Below are positions 1-63,100 of a stretch of DNA of 64,000 bases, one piece after another (the first letter of the stretch is position 1; the number at the start of each line of letters is the position of its first letter). A model generated the notes under the pieces. It was not told where the DNA came from and did not search any database. It worked only from the letters and a program-made list of their open reading frames with translations. Source of the stretch: Sorangium cellulosum (lineage in GTDB: Bacteria; Myxococcota_A; Polyangia; Polyangiales; Polyangiaceae); NCBI GenBank assembly GCA_020720045.1, contig DYPH01000001.1, positions 21,749 through 85,748 on the forward strand, in the 5' to 3' direction. The translations under genes and the position numbers were made by a program.

Positions 1-100
1 CGGACGCGTCGGCATCGAACTCCGCGCCGTCTCCCGCTTCGCGGACGGACGCGTCGGCATCGAACTCCGCGCCGTCTCCCGCTTCGCGGACGGACGCGTC
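1..100. repeat. 45-bp tandem repeat upstream of the first regulator gene
   Basis: Two complete 45-bp units (1-45 and 46-90) are followed by the first 10 bases of a third. Each unit holds the core CGCGCCGTCTCCCGCTTC followed by a GCGGACGGACGCGTC-like segment. The array may begin before the window. It ends about 20 bp before the start codon of the FHA/sigma-54 regulator, so it may be part of that gene's 5' region. The same sequence recurs inverted at about 4508-4582 and, slightly diverged, at 29290-29333. Confidence 0.9.
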
Positions 101-119
101 TGGCAAACGCCCCTTCCCC

Positions 120-4507: not shown

Positions 4508-4582
4508 TCACCGCGTCCGTCCGCGAAGCGGGAGACGGCGCGGACTTCTTGCCAAACGCGTCCGTCCGCGAAGCGGGCGCAC
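4508..4582. repeat. Inverted copies of the 45-bp repeat family
   Basis: Two copies of GCGTCCGTCCGCGAAGCGGG stand about 48 bp apart just after the mutS2 stop codon. Read on the minus strand, this block matches the array at 1-100, including the core and the TGGCAA that follows the array there. The regulator-mutS2 pair is therefore bracketed by inverted copies of the repeat. There is no adjoining transposase. Confidence 0.8.
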
Positions 4583-25615: not shown

Positions 25616-26434
25616 GTGTCGGAGCGGGCCCGCCGCCGTCCGCTTCGCGGGTGCGTCGCGCAGGCTTTCGGCGCGCTTGTCATTCTTTGCAGCGCACCGG
25701 CATCGGCCGATGGTCCGTCGCCGACCACCGGCGAGATTCCCGTCGACCAAGTGGCCGTTCGCTATTCGGCCCCCGAACTCGGCGGTTCTGCCCATCCGCG
25801 CTTCATTACCCTGCGCGAAGTGACGTTTTTTGCACGAATTGAAGCACTCGGTACCGACGGTGCTGTCGCAACCGACTTCGTAGCCCGCTATGGAAAGTCG
25901 GCCTACGAGCGCCTCATTGCGGAAGATTTGCTCGCCAGCGTGGAGGCACAAGCGCTGACATCACCCGTCCCGCGCACCGCGCTTCGGCCCACCGATGGGG
26001 GCGTCCGTGAGGCGACACGAACCGCCGCACAGATCGCGCGCATGGTCACCAGCGCGCGCTCCGAACTTGTTCGACGCATCGGCGACGAAAAGCAGCTGCA
26101 GGCGGCTCTCGCGGCCGACGGCATCAGCGCCGACGAATTCGACGGGCGCATGCGTCGCCGCGCATTGGCACTCTTCTATTTGGACCGAAATGTGACCCCG
26201 ATGCGCGAACCCCAGGAAGACGAGCTTCTTCGGGCGTTTCGCGGCGGTTCGCACCCGTTTCGAAACGAGAAATGGGAAACGGCGCGCACCAAGTTCGTTC
26301 CCTATTTTGTCGACGATCGCTTCCACCAGGCTGCCATCGAATACTTGCAAGCTGCACGTACCCGCGTGAAGATCGCCACGCCATCGCCGGAGCTTCTTCT
26401 GTCGGCCAGCGAGCGCTCGCGCCTCGGAAAGTGA
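25616..26434 (+). CDS. Secreted SurA N-domain-like protein
   Basis: From GTG 25616 the 272-residue product has an Arg-rich N-terminus and a hydrophobic stretch ending in CSAPASA, a probable signal peptide. The mature part (TFFARIEALG, then helices with paired charges, and FFRGG-like turns) resembles the helical chaperone domain of SurA/PpiD proteins without a parvulin domain. This is a fold-level guess. The GTG is 2 bp after the UPF0158 stop, and the next gene starts 2 bp after this one ends, so the three form a tight operon. Near the start, the DNA CCGCTTCGCGGGTGCGTC echoes the dispersed 45-bp repeat. Confidence 0.7.
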   Translation: MSERARRRPLRGCVAQAFGALVILCSAPASADGPSPTTGEIPVDQVAVRYSAPELGGSAHPRFITLREVTFFARIEALGTDGAVATDFVARYGKSAYERLIAEDLLASVEAQALTSPVPRTALRPTDGGVREATRTAAQIARMVTSARSELVRRIGDEKQLQAALAADGISADEFDGRMRRRALALFYLDRNVTPMREPQEDELLRAFRGGSHPFRNEKWETARTKFVPYFVDDRFHQAAIEYLQAARTRVKIATPSPELLLSASERSRLGK

Positions 26435-29241: not shown

Positions 29242-29289
29242 TCGCCTGCCCTCCCCTCCCCGCGGTCCCCCTTTCGGGGTAGACCGGCA

Positions 29290-29333
29290 AAATGCGTCCG
29301 CATCGAACTCCGCGCCGCCTCCCGCTTCGCGGA
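29290..29333. repeat. Diverged 45-bp repeat copy inside a signal peptide
   Basis: About 40 of 43 positions match the repeat unit at 46-100. Here the repeat includes the ATG at 29292 and encodes the basic N-region of the lipoprotein that follows, so an otherwise intergenic repeat has become coding. Confidence 0.8.
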
Positions 29334-31565
29334 CCGACGCTTCGGCTCCGTGCCCTTGGCCTCTCTGCTGCCCTCGCGGCTCCGCTATTCTCCTGCGGGG
29401 GCGACGAGCGAGACCTGGGAACGACGACGGCGCCGCTCGTTGTCTGCGCGAAGGGGGCGACGACGCCAGGCATGGACGTTTCCTACTACCAGGGGACGAT
29501 CAACTGGGATGCAGTGAAGGCCTCTGGTATCGAGTTTGCCATCGTCCGCACCGGCGACGGTACCTTTGAAGATCCGCAGTTCCCGACCTATTGGAGCGAA
29601 GCAAAGCGGGTCGGTCTCATTCGTGGGACCTACCACTTTTTCCGTCCCGGTAAAGACCCGGTCCAGCAGGCCGATATCGTGATTGCGAAGGTTGGAAAGC
29701 TCGCTGCGGAAGACCTCCCGGTGACCGCCGACGTGGAAGCGACCGACGGCGTCCCTTCTGCGACGATTGTTGCAAAACTTCACACCTTTATCGACCGCAT
29801 CGAGGCGGGCACCGGCAAGAAGCCGATGATCTACACCGGGACCTGGTTTTGGGATCCCCAGGTAAAGTCCTCGGATTGGTCGAAGACGCCACTTTGGCTA
29901 AGTCACTACACAAATGGTTGCCCAAACTTGCCGGTCCCCTGGGCCGACTGGGCCCTTCATCAATACACAGACAAGGGGACCGTCCCTGGCATTTCCGGCG
30001 GCGTCGACCTCAACCGCTTCAACGGCACCCTTGCCGATTTGAAGGCCTTCGCGATTGCATCGAATTCCTGCGCGGCGGAAGTCTGTAATGGCAAAGATGA
30101 TAACTGCGATGGCGTAATTGATGACGGCGAGGTTTGCGAATTGGAAGCGCTCCACCGCGACCTCGCCAGCTACGCACCGCCACGAACGACCGACGTCAAC
30201 GGGGACGGAAAGGCCGATGTTTGCGGCCGGGGCGCTGCTGGGCTGTGGTGCCACCTCTCGACGGGAAGCGGCTTCGGCGCCGCGACCCCCGTCGTGGCAA
30301 TTTCGAACGCGGCCGGCTGGGACGACCCGAAGTACAGCAGCTCGCTGCGCATGGGCGACATCGATGGCGACGGGAAAGCAGACGCCTGCGCCCGCGGAAA
30401 AGACGGCGTCCGGTGTTGGCTCGGCTCGGGAACCGGCCTCGGCACCGAAGTCGTAGGGCCAAACCTCACCGACGCGAGCGGCTGGGGCGACCCCGCCTAC
30501 GGAACGACGCTCCGGCTCGCCGACTTCGACGGAGACGGTCGTGACGACGTCTGTGCCCTCGCGGCCAAGGGGGTCGCCTGCTGGCGCTCCCTCGGAACGT
30601 CCTTCGGCCCGCAGGTCGATGGGCCGGCTTGGTCGACGGCGGCCGGCTACTCTTCCGCGAAATATTACGGGACGTTCCGGACGGGCGACCTCGACGGCGA
30701 TGGTCGCGACGACGTCTGCCTTCGTGGCCCCGCGGGCATCGAATGTGCGCTCTCCGACGGCACCGGCTTCCCCAAGAAAGTGGTCGGCCCGGAACTTTCC
30801 GATGCGAGCGGCTGGGGCGACGTATCCCTTTGGAGCACGATCCGCGTGGCCGACGTCACCGGGGACGGGCGCGCCGATCTGTGTGCCCGTTCGAAGGTCG
30901 ACTACCAGTGTTGGGCGTCGACGGGATTTGGCTTTGATCGCGCCGTCGAAATCGCGGCATGGAGCGACGCCGCCGGGTGGAACGACCCGTCCAACTACCG
31001 GACAATTCGAGCAATTGACCTCGATGGCGACGGTGCCTCGGAGATCTGCGGCCGTAGTAACGACGGCGTTCAATGCTACAAGCCGGGCGGAACAAACCCT
31101 ATTTCTGGCCCCGCCTGGACCGACGCCGTTGGCTGGAGTCTGCCCGCCTACTACGACACGATCCGCGCAGGTGACGTCGACGGCGACGGAAAGGCCGACC
31201 TCTGCGCGCGCGCCGCCGCAGGTTTCCGCTGCATTCCGTCGACCGGCACTGGCTTCTCCGGGGAGGTCGCCTCGGCAGAATTTTCCGACAAGGACGGCTG
31301 GGGCAAGGAGCCTTACTACCCGACGATCCTGTTCGGCGGTCCGGGAAAGCCGCGCCCGCATCCTGGTTCCCGCGATGGCGGCGTTCCCGCCAGCGATGGA
31401 GGATCGGTGCAGGATGCAGGTACCAGCGGAGGGGACGACGGTGACGGCGATGGTGGCTGCGCGTGCCGAGCGGCAGCGCCCCACGGATCGGCATCGGCGG
31501 GCGGCGGGATCGTCGCAGTTGCGCTCCTACTAGGCGCCGCGCGGCGACGGAGGAATCGCCTTTGA
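29292..31565 (+). CDS. GH25 lysozyme-like lipoprotein with FG-GAP repeats and MYXO-CTERM-like tail
   Basis: The 757-residue protein starts with an Arg-rich signal peptide ending near the lipobox-like LFSC (Cys35). A glycoside hydrolase 25 domain follows (about 57-255) with the acidic residues of GH25 muramidases: Asp62 in GMDVSYYQG and Asp147/Glu149 in TADVEA. Then comes a CNGKDDNCDG metal-binding motif, as in MopE-like proteins, and about seven FG-GAP/VCBS-type repeats (DVNGDGKADVC and variants), probably a calcium-binding propeller. The end has a Gly/Asp-rich linker, a GGCACR-type cysteine motif, a hydrophobic segment and a final Arg cluster, matching MYXO-CTERM sorting signals. Expected location is the cell surface, acting on peptidoglycan. 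It overlaps the next gene by 4 nt. Confidence 0.92.
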   Translation: MRPHRTPRRLPLRGPTLRLRALGLSAALAAPLFSCGGDERDLGTTTAPLVVCAKGATTPGMDVSYYQGTINWDAVKASGIEFAIVRTGDGTFEDPQFPTYWSEAKRVGLIRGTYHFFRPGKDPVQQADIVIAKVGKLAAEDLPVTADVEATDGVPSATIVAKLHTFIDRIEAGTGKKPMIYTGTWFWDPQVKSSDWSKTPLWLSHYTNGCPNLPVPWADWALHQYTDKGTVPGISGGVDLNRFNGTLADLKAFAIASNSCAAEVCNGKDDNCDGVIDDGEVCELEALHRDLASYAPPRTTDVNGDGKADVCGRGAAGLWCHLSTGSGFGAATPVVAISNAAGWDDPKYSSSLRMGDIDGDGKADACARGKDGVRCWLGSGTGLGTEVVGPNLTDASGWGDPAYGTTLRLADFDGDGRDDVCALAAKGVACWRSLGTSFGPQVDGPAWSTAAGYSSAKYYGTFRTGDLDGDGRDDVCLRGPAGIECALSDGTGFPKKVVGPELSDASGWGDVSLWSTIRVADVTGDGRADLCARSKVDYQCWASTGFGFDRAVEIAAWSDAAGWNDPSNYRTIRAIDLDGDGASEICGRSNDGVQCYKPGGTNPISGPAWTDAVGWSLPAYYDTIRAGDVDGDGKADLCARAAAGFRCIPSTGTGFSGEVASAEFSDKDGWGKEPYYPTILFGGPGKPRPHPGSRDGGVPASDGGSVQDAGTSGGDDGDGDGGCACRAAAPHGSASAGGGIVAVALLLGAARRRRNRL

Positions 31566-41378: not shown

Positions 41379-41915
41379 TCAGTCGTCTTCTTCTGCGCGA
41401 GGATCCCGTCGCGTCACGCGCATTTCTTCGCGGACTGCGCGAAAAGGAACATCAGCAGTTCGCGAGAGCCGCGCGGTGACGGTGGCCACGATTCCCGACT
41501 GGGGCGGCGGTGTCATCCGCGGAATTCGCGGAACTTCGGGGACGACCCCTTCAAAAAGCTCGTGGTCAAACGCGGGAACTTTGGGCGTCGCCCGCTCGTG
41601 GGACGACACGTTTGTCTCCGCCCGGCGCGACGCCGGATCGGAGAACACGTTTGTCTCCGCCCGGCGCGACGCCGGATCGGAGAACACGTTTGTCTCCGCC
41701 CGGAGTTCGCCGGCCGACGACGCATTCGCTCGCACTTCTTGAATCCGAACGGCCTCGCCGCTCGCGGTCCACGGGACATGCGGGAGCCGCGGCGCAGACG
41801 GACGCTCCGTCGGTCGGGTTTGGGACGATTCAGTCCCCTCGGCGAGCCCCCGGATGTCGTCGGACAAAGCCCGCGAATCTTTGGCGGAAGAACGGTGATC
41901 CAAAGCCCCCTCCAT
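41379..41915 (-). CDS. Hypothetical protein with 13-residue tandem repeats
   Basis: The 178-residue product of ATG 41915 has no recognised domain. The first 70 residues are charged and probably disordered. Two and a half copies of a 13-residue repeat built on AETNVFSDPASRR follow, then a Pro-rich segment and an amphipathic end closing with EEDD. Other frames are also open here because of the repeat, but this one ends just before the shared terminator, as a real gene would. It is either a linker-like regulatory protein or a spurious frame. Confidence 0.45.
   Translation of the reverse strand: MEGALDHRSSAKDSRALSDDIRGLAEGTESSQTRPTERPSAPRLPHVPWTASGEAVRIQEVRANASSAGELRAETNVFSDPASRRAETNVFSDPASRRAETNVSSHERATPKVPAFDHELFEGVVPEVPRIPRMTPPPQSGIVATVTARLSRTADVPFRAVREEMRVTRRDPRAEEDD
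41608..41704. repeat. 39-bp tandem repeat (2.5 copies)
   Basis: The unit begins ACGTTTGTCTCCGCCC and repeats exactly at 41608-41646 and 41647-41685, then partly to 41704. The period is 13 codons, so the frame is kept. No spacers are present, which rules out a CRISPR array. Confidence 0.9.
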
Positions 41916-56092: not shown

Positions 56093-57432
56093 TCGACTTC
56101 GTCAGTACGCGCGCGCCGACCGGGCCCGGTCTTGCGCTTTCCGAGGCGCTGGCCCAGGGGCTCGCCCCCGACGGCGGTCTTTACGTCCCCCGGGCGTTCC
56201 CCCGACTCGATCCGGCGATTTTTCAAGAAACAACGCTTGTTGGCCGGGCCGTCCGCCTCCTGGCGCCCTTCTTTGCCGGCGATCGTCTGGAAGCCGAACT
56301 TCCGGCGATCCTCGCGGCCGCCTTCCCCTTCGGCGCGCCGCTTTGTGAGGTGTCGGGCGCCGGTCGAAGCTACCGTTTCTTAGAGCTTTTCCACGGGCCG
56401 ACCGCCGCCTTCAAAGATTTTGGTGCGCGCTTCCTGGCCGAATGTCTGTCCCGCAACCTGGAAGAAGAGACGACGATCCTTGTCGCAACCTCCGGGGACA
56501 CCGGCGCCGCCGTCGCCGGCGCTTTCCATGGACGCCCCGGCTTCCGTGTCGTGATCCTGTACCCGGATGGCCGCGTCTCGCCCCGGCAGGCCCACCAGCT
56601 CGGCGCCTTCGGTGGAAACGTCGAAACCTATCGTGTTTCCGGAACCTTCGACGACTGCCAGGCGATGGTGAAGGCCGCCTTTCAGGCGCCGCGCCCGCGG
56701 ACCGGCCGGAAGCTCGCCTCGGCGAACAGCATCTCCCTCGGGCGCCTACTCCCACAAATGACCTATTACGCAGATGCAGTTCTGCGCGCCGTTTCCTCAC
56801 CGCCTTTGGCGGTTCCGGGCGGACGCGCAGATGCAGCATTGTCATGTGCTGCGAGGTCGAGCGACGGAGCACACGAAACTTCATTTGTAATTCCGACGGG
56901 GAACCTCGGAAACGCATTTGCCGCCTGGATGGCCCGCGCCCTTTCCACGGATACCGGGCGGCGGTTGCCGATCGGCACACTCACCCTCGCGACGAACGCA
57001 AACCGGATGCTGGTCGACTACGTCACAACCGGCGCGGCGGCCCCGGCGGCGACGATCGCGACCCTCGCCAACGCGATGGACGTGGGCGCTCCGAGCAACC
57101 TGGAACGGCTCCGGCATTTCGCGAGCGATCGCGCCGGGATCGCGGCAGTCTCCGTCGACGACGCTGCCATCGCAGCAACGATCGCCACCGTTTTCCGCGA
57201 GACCGGCTACGCGATCTGCCCCCACACCGCCTGCGCGGTCGCCGCCGCTCCCGCCGACTTCGACGGCGTCTTTGTGGCGACGGCCCACCCGGCCAAGTTC
57301 GACACCATCGTCACGCCGATCTGTGGCCCGGTCGCCGTCCCAACCGGGCTCGCCGAGCTCCTTGCCCGCGAAGCGCACGCGGCACCGCTCGCAGCGAACG
57401 CCGAAGCCCTCCTCGACGCCCTCCGCGGCTAG
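56089..57432 (+). CDS. thrC: Threonine synthase
   Basis: This 447-residue PLP enzyme converts O-phosphohomoserine to threonine. The N-terminus (STRAPTGPGLALSEALAQGLAPDGGLYVP) and the PLP lysine in TAAFKDFGARF fit the bacterial class II (E. coli-type) enzyme. VATSGDTGAAVA and GNLGNAFAAW are further PLP-site loops. ATG 56089 overlaps the thrB stop. The TAG stop shares bases with the mutS stop on the other strand (CTAG), with no terminator between. Confidence 0.96.
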   Translation: MIDFVSTRAPTGPGLALSEALAQGLAPDGGLYVPRAFPRLDPAIFQETTLVGRAVRLLAPFFAGDRLEAELPAILAAAFPFGAPLCEVSGAGRSYRFLELFHGPTAAFKDFGARFLAECLSRNLEEETTILVATSGDTGAAVAGAFHGRPGFRVVILYPDGRVSPRQAHQLGAFGGNVETYRVSGTFDDCQAMVKAAFQAPRPRTGRKLASANSISLGRLLPQMTYYADAVLRAVSSPPLAVPGGRADAALSCAARSSDGAHETSFVIPTGNLGNAFAAWMARALSTDTGRRLPIGTLTLATNANRMLVDYVTTGAAAPAATIATLANAMDVGAPSNLERLRHFASDRAGIAAVSVDDAAIAATIATVFRETGYAICPHTACAVAAAPADFDGVFVATAHPAKFDTIVTPICGPVAVPTGLAELLAREAHAAPLAANAEALLDALRG

Positions 57433-60114: not shown

Positions 60115-63100
60115 TCAGTTCACGGACGGGCGTCCGAGTGTGAGCGTCGACAGGTCAATGAGGACAAGGCCCTGGGCGGAACCATCGACAACCGCCAATT
60201 CTCCCAACGACTCAATGTACTGGAGGCTGCGCGGAGAGACCGCAGAACTCTGAGCGGCGAGGTTGTAGATCAACGACGAATAACCGCCGCGCGTCTGGAA
60301 ACGGAAGGTCATGTCACGGCCCGGCGCCGTCGACTGGCCAGCCCCAACCGCCCCCGACGCCGCTTCGTAGGCGACGAAGGAGAAGAACGGATTGCGGAAG
60401 GCGAGCGGGCTGTTGCGGTCGACGGCGACGAAGCCGGTCGGCGACGTCGGGCGGGGCGACGGGAAGACACGCGATTCAAGGAGGCGTTCGCGGTCGCTGC
60501 AGGAGAGCACGCACGCGCCCGACGGATCACGGCTCACGTGATGCAAGTAGCCGCTCGCCGAGCCGACCGCGACGAAGCTCGCGCCAGCGCGAACTTGAAA
60601 GGAGACGCGGTCTTGGAAGCAGCAGCGGGCGCGACGCAAAAGGTCGGCGTTTGAACCGTCAGCGGGGACGACTTCGCGGGCCGAGATCCCCTTCGCGCGG
60701 TCGGTGTAGCCGAAGCGGCCGAGGACCAGCCGGTCGTCGTAGGCTTCCAGAATCGGCAAATCGCGTTCGAGAAGCTCGTCGGAGACGTTTCCGAAGGTCG
60801 CTTGGCAGAGCGCCTGCCGCTGGTTGGCCGACCCGGGCAGGACCGCTTCGCAGCTGCTCGGGAGTACGCCGTCGGTCCACCAGGGGTCGCTCGCCGGGAC
60901 GACGTCGTTGGTGATCTGCACGTAATCGGCGAGTGTTTTCGAGGGATTTCGGCTCGGCGCTCCGCCGCTTGTCGCCAGTGCCGGTGTGAGTCGTGTCGCC
61001 CGTTCGCGCCCCGCGTAGGCGTCTTCGACGCCTCGCCGGCAGAAGAGTGCATCTTGCTGCGCGAGGATGAGCGACTTCTCGCCGTCGGTGGAGGAGAGCC
61101 GCCCCGAAAGGCCGCCAAAGCCGGGCAACGCCCCTTCGTAAGTGACCGTCCACGTCTGGTCGACTTGGAGTTCGGGGGCCTCCCAGGAGAGGCGGACGCC
61201 AGGGACCGACGTAGCGCTCGGCGTGGTGACGCTCGCATCAGCGACGGCGGTTGGGTCGGCGAGCGTGAAGTCGCGTACCGCGGTCGTCGTCGGCAAAATC
61301 GTAGGGTATTTGGCAGCTTCCGGCCCCTGGGTCGGCAGGGGTGCATCGACGAGCGAGAGCGTCGGCGGCGAGGCGAGAGCCGGGATCTTGCGCCCTTGAT
61401 CGGCGTCCTCGCGCAGGAAGTAGCTGGTTCGCGGGCGGTGGGGGGCCGACACCGGGTAGTAGGCTTCGTCGGTCGTCGCGCCCGAGGCGGCGATCGGGGC
61501 GCCGTAGGGGTCGCTCGACGGACCGACCGGCATGGGCGGCGTGGCATCGGAAACCGGAACGGTTCCGCCAAGATCGGCGGGCCGGCGGCAGGGGGCATCC
61601 CAGTCGTCGACGTCGATGACCGTGACCTCGCCGTTCGTCAGCGTCACGAAGCCGAAGATGCCGCGGAGACGGTTCGGTCCAAGCGCCGTCGCGGTGTAAT
61701 TCCCGTTCGCCGTGTAGGCGACGCCGTCGTCGGTCGCTCCGGGGTTCGGATTGCAGAGGAGCCCGGTCTTCGGCGACGGGAGGACATTCCCCTTGGCGTC
61801 GCGGAGCAGCGGGAAGTCGTGGCGGGCAAAGGCGACCTGCGCCGCTTTCGCGCCAAACACGAGGCGGTCGGGCGCCTGGAAGGGGTTCGCCTCGGGATGG
61901 GGGCGTTGGAGGGGGGCCCGCGAAGCGGTTGTCGGATCGGTCGCGTCAAACACCGCGATCGAGCCATCGACGCTATCGATCGCGTAAAGGAACCGCTTGA
62001 AATTGCGGGTCGGCGGGCTCACGGCGACGGAAAGCGTCCCACCGACGCGCGTCGCATCGACCGCCGACGTCAGGACGTACGGGGCGAGCTCTTTCGGCTT
62101 TGCCGGATCGGCGACGTCGATGACGTGAACCACCGGCCGTGCACTATCTGCAAGATACAAGTAGTGATCGTCGCGGGCACCGTCGCCAATTCGTGGCGCA
62201 TCGGAGGCTTCGGGAACTGCGCCTGCATCGCCCGTTCCGGCATCACCCGTTCCGGCATCACCCGTTCCGGCATCACCCGTTCCGGCATCGCCGGAGCCGC
62301 CGTCGGCTCCCGCATCCCCTGCAGTTTTGCAGCCTGCGGGGGCCCCCGGCAGCGGAATTGCAGCGGTGCCACCGTCAAATCCGAGCCCGTCCCCCCAGCT
62401 TTGGCCGGCTGGGACGGCGTTCGGGGCGCCGGCAACCTCGATGCTTCCAAGGATCGGGCACGCTTCGACAGCGCCGGGAACGAGGCTCCCGGTCGCGGTG
62501 AACGGTGCCGCGTCGAGGATGAGCACGCGTGCCGGATCGAGGCGCGTGCCGCCAAGTACGACGGCGATGCGGCCCGGCGACGCGAAGGGGTTCGTCGCGT
62601 CGTTCGGCAGCGCGAAAACACGCGAGGGGCGCGACGGGAGTGCGCAGGCCCGGTAGGCGAGGAGCGAAGGGGGCGGCGTCGCGCCGACGAAAAAGCCCTG
62701 CCCGAGAAGACCGACGGTCGGCGCGCCGTACAGCGCATAGGCGCCTGGGGAGCCGCCTGCGACGAAAATCGTGGAACTGTCAGAACTTGCGGCAACGTCC
62801 GTCGGAAGCACGGGGGCGACGATCGGGTCGACGCCAGGGGTGGTGCGATCGACGTCGAGGATCGACGAAGACGAGAGATCCACGGCGGCAAGCTCACCGC
62901 GGGTCGTCTGCGTCACGAAGCCGACGACATGTGCGAGGGCGGCAGACGGGTCGATCGCACCGGGGACCTTCGGGCACTCGCTATCGGGAACGGCGACAGG
63001 CTCGATGAGGGTGCGGACGCCGTCCTTGACGGTCGCAACCCGAACGCACACCGTCGCCAAGCGCTCGGCGCGATCGAAGGTGCGGAGGGCCTCCTGGGCC

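Follow-up and report, generated by a model that had tools for sequence, protein, structure and literature searches.

A 45-bp repeat of one myxobacterial genus, probably inserted directly after the start codon of existing lipoprotein genes

A short repeat that otherwise lies between genes coincides here with the start of a lipoprotein signal peptide, which raises the question of whether the repeat brought the export signal or entered a gene that already had one. The stretch analysed (64,000 nucleotides; hereafter the window) belongs to contig C296 of the source genome (G000; 6.34 Mb, 357 contigs). We consider it very likely that the arrangement arose when a non-coding mobile repeat of 45 bp, restricted to one genus, inserted once, right after the ATG of an existing lipoprotein gene.

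The window copy and its repeat family

The relevant features of the window are as follows.
9 to 101, forward strand: two tandem element copies, intergenic, with the next called gene 18 nt downstream
4511 to 4577, reverse strand: two partial or whole element copies, intergenic
29292 to 29294, forward strand: host start codon ATG, which with the next C (ATGC) fits the element target A-[CGT]-GC
29295 to 29339, forward strand: 45-nt element copy, codons 2–16, encoding residues 2–16 (RPHRTPRRLPLRGPT) of the lipoprotein
29292 to 29396, forward strand: predicted lipoprotein signal peptide, with an element-extended n-region, h-region and lipobox LFSC (Cys35), read partly from the sequence
29292 to 31565, forward strand: host gene, a GH25 and FG-GAP protein of 757 aa with a MYXO-CTERM-like tail

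The border of the copy at 29295 to 29339 can be slid by 1–2 nt because GC is present at both ends. The repeat copy reported at 29290–29333 in the initial annotation is real: positions 29294–29346 are identical to the copy at 6–58 at 49 of 53 positions (92%), the 16-mer CATCGAACTCCGCGCC has an exact match in the window at that same copy, and CCGCTTCGCGGACGGACGCG occurs six times in the window with up to three mismatches, against 0.28 expected. The accompanying proposal that the repeat encodes the basic n-region of the GH25/FG-GAP lipoprotein signal peptide also held, the element forming codons 2–16. The stretch at 25616, thought to be a similar repeat, shares only an 11-mer and is absent from the 14 best repeat-HMM hits (E up to 50), and it therefore has no recognisable status as a copy. 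The tail of the GH25 protein (31450–31565) is MYXO-CTERM-like, being Cys-rich with a hydrophobic stretch and RRRRNRL, such that, together with the N-terminal lipobox, one protein displays two possible membrane anchors.

A search with a 20-nt core at up to three mismatches retrieved 284 matches in G000 versus 4 for the reversed control. At up to two mismatches, 252 were found in G000, 96 in G001 (the sole congener genome compared), and 0–6, close to the control, in each of 95 further genomes from the family and order. The element is abundant only in one uncultured myxobacterial genus. The sequence analysed amounted to 845 kb for G000 and 333 kb for G001, mostly surrounding element copies; among the matches listed, it covered at least 227 G000 copies, forming 139 arrays, and at least 73 G001 copies, out of the totals of 284 (three mismatches) and 96 (two mismatches).

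Copies occur alone or in head-to-tail arrays with a period of 45; among the matches listed, the 139 arrays examined in G000 comprise 92 solo and 47 tandem cases. Array copy number differs between G000 and G001 loci (8 vs 2, 6 vs 3, and 4 vs 1). Alignment of 115 solo copies revealed sharp borders, A(82%)-[C/G/T]-GCGT on the left and GGACGCGT on the right, with no conservation beyond them in these copies. Both ends carry a GC(GT) direct repeat, so that a 2–4 bp target-site duplication of the kind that marks MITEs is inseparable from target overlap. The DNA fold (−12.8 kcal/mol) has a z of −0.84 versus dinucleotide shuffles, so that the hairpin is no stronger than that of shuffled sequence; the predicted stem is bulged, with GC at its base and a 3-nt TTC loop. 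No Rfam family matched the window.

Empty sites and the host signal peptide

The most direct evidence on what the host gene already possessed comes from a G000 lipoprotein gene (C226:5202) whose congeneric locus (G001 C127) lacks the element. The G001 protein begins MHRSGPFAPVIALVLAAC, whereas the version with the element reads M-RMARTPRRLPLRGRT-HRSGPFAPVIALVLAAC. At the DNA level, ..GACATGCATCGAAGCGGCCCC.. compares with ..CACATGCGTATGGCAAGAACTCC...GGACGGACGCATCGAAGCGGCCCC.., an exact 45-nt in-frame gap after the start codon with conserved flanks. A second empty site, of two units and likewise in frame, was found inside the 1076-aa C182 gene. Among the signal-peptide cases, the empty site is observed for C226; for the other seven genes, the window gene included, it is reconstructed in silico. 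Removal of the element in silico left a complete lipoprotein signal in all eight genes; for the window gene minus 45 nt, the signal reads MLRLRALGLSAALAAPLFSC, and an orthologue of that gene with an empty site would be expected to read ATGC|TTCGGCTCC.

Homologues outside the genus agree with this picture. A related GH25 protein of G004, from another genus, begins MLLRLRSLAALSSGALSVLVVSVAGC, and its alignment starts at residue 17 of the window protein, the first residue past the element. For DUF885, alignments with orthologues from other genera begin around residue 20, or inside the element where the residues are unrelated. Orthologues outside the genus are lipoproteins that lack the element.

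From the C226 empty site and the in silico removals, it follows that the ATG, h-region and lipobox belong to the host gene. As judged from sequence, the element lengthens an existing n-region by 15 residues, about five of them Arg, and the export signal is the host's. Insertion, and not deletion, is the probable polarity, since counts of the element in other genera do not rise above background. The initial annotation had the repeat supply the ATG and donate export signals, its n-region turning non-secreted ORFs into new secreted proteins. The recurrence of an identical register in many secreted proteins would fit such a donation, but the start codon, h-region and lipobox of C226 pre-existed in the element-free orthologue, every reconstructed empty site retains a signal, and the orthologues of other genera are lipoproteins regardless, which makes donation highly improbable.

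It is very unlikely that the element remains untranslated, serving as a 5′ regulatory hairpin with translation beginning downstream, as Di Nocera et al. 2013 (PMC3733652) cautioned may be the case for many N-terminal REPs. The ORF of the window gene has its ATG at 29292, preceded in frame by a TAG at 29280, and no other in-frame ATG, GTG or TTG was found ahead of the h-region, nor any from the end of the element to Met60; a downstream start would therefore cost the protein its export signal. In C226, the element lies behind a pre-existing start codon, and the fold described above is no better than that of shuffles. Because no other start codon precedes the window gene's h-region, the longer n-region is probably translated.

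Recurrence in lipoprotein genes and the target site

Across the two congeneric genomes, eight independent lipoprotein genes display ATG plus element in the identical register MRxxxTPRRLPLRGRT, and the element is in frame over its 45 nt in all eight. They are listed here with two variants.
Window gene (C296), GH25 and FG-GAP: ATG plus element
C183 and its G001 orthologue C64, lipoprotein: ATG plus element
C201 and its G001 orthologue C103, DUF885 lipoprotein: ATG plus element
C40:12761, lipoprotein: ATG plus element
C40:14305, lipoprotein: ATG plus element
C226:5202, G000 lipoprotein: ATG plus element, with the congener locus C127 empty
C218:8288, lipoprotein: ATG plus element
G001 C163, lipoprotein: ATG plus element
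C169/C160, variant with a Sec-type signal: element placed a few codons into the reading frame
C556/C234, variant with an N-terminal membrane segment: element placed a few codons into the reading frame

The initial annotation had named a lack of further cases among secreted proteins as a refutation of its proposal; instead, there are seven more lipoprotein genes in the same register and the two variants. The N-terminal in-frame insertion is kept in the second MAG at C201/C103, C183/C64 and C169. At G000 C132, the orthologue of G001 C163, a trimmed remnant with a 30-nt in-frame deletion reads MRSQRTPRPFPLAALIVALAALPVLAC. The window gene's N-terminus is absent from the G001 assembly, and a search of G001 for the C40 lipoproteins did not find them.

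These genes belong to a larger set of 80 independent coding insertions in unrelated protein-coding genes of the two genomes, as delimited by a home-made dicodon gene caller, adopted since codon-only coding scores were too weak. In G000, 61 of the 139 examined arrays lie wholly within called genes while the coding share of the sequence is about 88%; coding insertions are therefore depleted yet common. Within called genes, most copies lie internally or C-terminally and are read in the neutral frame A (FASNSAPSPASRTDA) or in rA (SVREAGDGAEFDAN), a reverse frame. The Arg-rich reading, RLHxTPRRLPLRGRT, is that of frame P. An N-terminal position with a hydrophobic segment following was found for 9 of 14 independent frame-P insertions, whereas the remaining frames gave 4 of 66 (Fisher p = 5e-6); C218:8288 is a tenth frame-P N-terminal case, counted as internal owing to the start that was chosen for it. 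Signal peptides were called here by a simple hydrophobicity/lipobox rule, not SignalP.

Coding copies are not confined to signal peptides. A non-secreted P-loop kinase-like protein (G000 C293:42706, L144:4007–4053) is a counter-example that begins MDRQTTPRRLPLRGRTRIVLEGVTGAGKSS, the element extending its N-terminus directly ahead of the Walker A motif. Large genes with copies read in a neutral or an acidic frame are G000 C182:73408 (L115), C134, C224, C340, C245 and C256, and in-gene copy number at such sites is sometimes unequal between the two species, yielding natural protein-length variants.

The target site offers a reason for the recurrence at start codons. Solo copies lie in targets near A-[CGT]-GC|GT; ATG followed by C matches, and ATGCGT, a Met-Arg start, matches fully. 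Among ATGC-flanked copies, with orthologues merged, 8 of 16 are gene-start copies, against 121 of 5122 ATGC sites (2.4%; p ~1e-9). Genes starting ATGCGT are themselves biased toward export, with a signal or TM N-terminus in 10 of 12 versus 173 of 522 ATG genes by the simple rule. The match of the target to ATGCGT and the exported bias of such genes together explain the signal-peptide bias: signal peptides in 8/8 ATG-register genes have a chance of 0.23 given the ATGCGT-start background. That all eight are lipoproteins has a chance of 0.0009 given 5 lipoproteins among 12 ATGCGT starts, or 2e-6 given ATGC starts. This lipoprotein-specific bias, resting on 12 background genes, may or may not be a sign of selection.

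The preferred reading, one insertion after an existing start codon, would proceed as follows. The element would insert at a target resembling A-[CGT]-GC|GT, which a Met-Arg start ATGCGT fits, and would add exactly 15 codons, always in the same frame (Rxxx-TPRRLPLRGRT), placing an Arg-rich stretch ahead of a complete signal peptide; the empty site of C226 shows this addition to a pre-existing signal, which for the other seven genes, among them that of the window, is a reconstruction. Frame P is fixed because the 45-nt unit is readable after ATGC in that frame only, and insertions are automatically in frame and Arg-rich because the unit is 45 nt long without stops in the frames read. Persistence is probable given that 45 nt is a multiple of three, that no stop occurs in the frames read, and that n-regions tolerate positive charge.

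Beyond such tolerance, the Arg-rich extension could have been selected for retuned export (Sec/SRP, or a Tat-like RRLPL), with an enrichment exceeding target chance. The lipoprotein figures and the several insertions that stay in frame in two species point in this direction, but the ATGCGT background numbers 12 genes of which 10 have signal or TM N-termini, so that signal peptides are expected, the C132 insertion has been trimmed, and tolerance accounts for most of the pattern; we regard such domestication as unlikely. It is quite unlikely, too, that a mobile repeat with a Met-Arg-start target acts as a recurrent n-region cassette that alters export rate or route (e.g., Tat) and is kept by selection. 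In a high-GC genome in which several contigs start or stop within repeat copies, one might suspect an artefact of MAG assembly, or an Arg- and GC-rich sequence that arose by chance or convergence, but the probability is negligible: this explanation was rejected on the 284 versus 4 control matches, the same insertions in the congener MAG and the precise 45-bp gap.

Comparison with known repeats

Several repeat systems invite comparison. Rickettsia RPEs (Ogata et al. 2000, 2002, per PMC10969869) are short dispersed repeats found in frame in unrelated genes and translated; those first reported are ~150 bp and palindromic, and some lie at N-termini. The 45-bp element resembles them in its in-frame occurrence in unrelated protein-coding genes. 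By their description, it differs in length, taxon, head-to-tail tandem units and weak hairpin, lacking a strong palindromic fold, and in recurrently targeting the codon after the ATG of lipoprotein genes. Enterobacterial RU-2 corresponds to residues 1–30 of the predicted Yersinia YPO1552 signal peptide, distant homologues of which have unrelated signal peptides (Delihas 2007, PMC2759123). There, too, a small mobile sequence encodes part of a predicted signal peptide; whereas RU-2 offers one strong case, the present element occurs in at least eight genes, in one register and limited to the n-region, and both an empty site and an explanation by target site are at hand.

GTAG/CGTC-tagged REPs are small, dispersed, partly palindromic repeats of intergenic and intragenic location, the CGTC-tagged ones being without a dedicated transposase, mostly arranged as head-to-head dimers with a CCA tail, and defined by an 8–9 bp stem with complementary A/T at its first two positions and a loop of 4–5 nt (Di Nocera et al. 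2013, PMC3733652). The element is likewise small, dispersed, intergenic and intragenic. Its bulged, GC-based stem and TTC loop, its head-to-tail arrays of 45-nt period and its consensus without a CCA tail set it apart from CGTC REPs, and, unlike in a GTAG REP/REPtron, the RAYT-like genes (n = 2) are not flanked by it; membership in either group was rejected on stem, dimer orientation, CCA tail and RAYT flanking. The two genes in question (L241:1408–2352 and L242:1351–2328, in G000 C83 and C219) are paralogous RAYT/Y1-type tyrosine transposase genes of ~314–325 aa. With no element copy within ~1.4 kb of either, RAYT was rejected as a linked mobiliser.

MIRU-VNTR-type repeats form dispersed tandem intergenic arrays of ~45–100 bp units whose copy number varies between strains. 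The varying tandem arrays of the element are similar; in contrast, solo copies of it go precisely into a defined target, which may lie right behind a start codon. No report of this 45-bp repeat in myxobacteria was found in the open-access literature.

In-frame genic repeats are already known; what sets the present case apart is the recurrence in one register, the empty site and the target-site cause. The element offers an unusually clean example of protein sequence gained from repetitive DNA, in the same gene class, codon and frame, its target being a Met-Arg start, and the natural plus/minus pairs permit asking how far n-region length and charge can grow. N-terminal likeness among these lipoproteins should not be taken as homology, since protein searches linked unrelated proteins via the element.

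A second dispersed GC-rich repeat family, GCGTCCGCCCGGAACCGCCGnAGGCGGTGAGGAAACGGCGCGCA, with a tandem period of 57, is present in both congeners (window 56782–56829, reverse strand; L077:7131–7200; ~40 copies in the fetched loci). The C40:14305 gene contains one copy, and its protein therefore carries two repeat families. The window also has short tandem repeats of 39 and 15 bp, both multiples of three and unrelated to the element, at 41601–41717 and 62207–62304, respectively.
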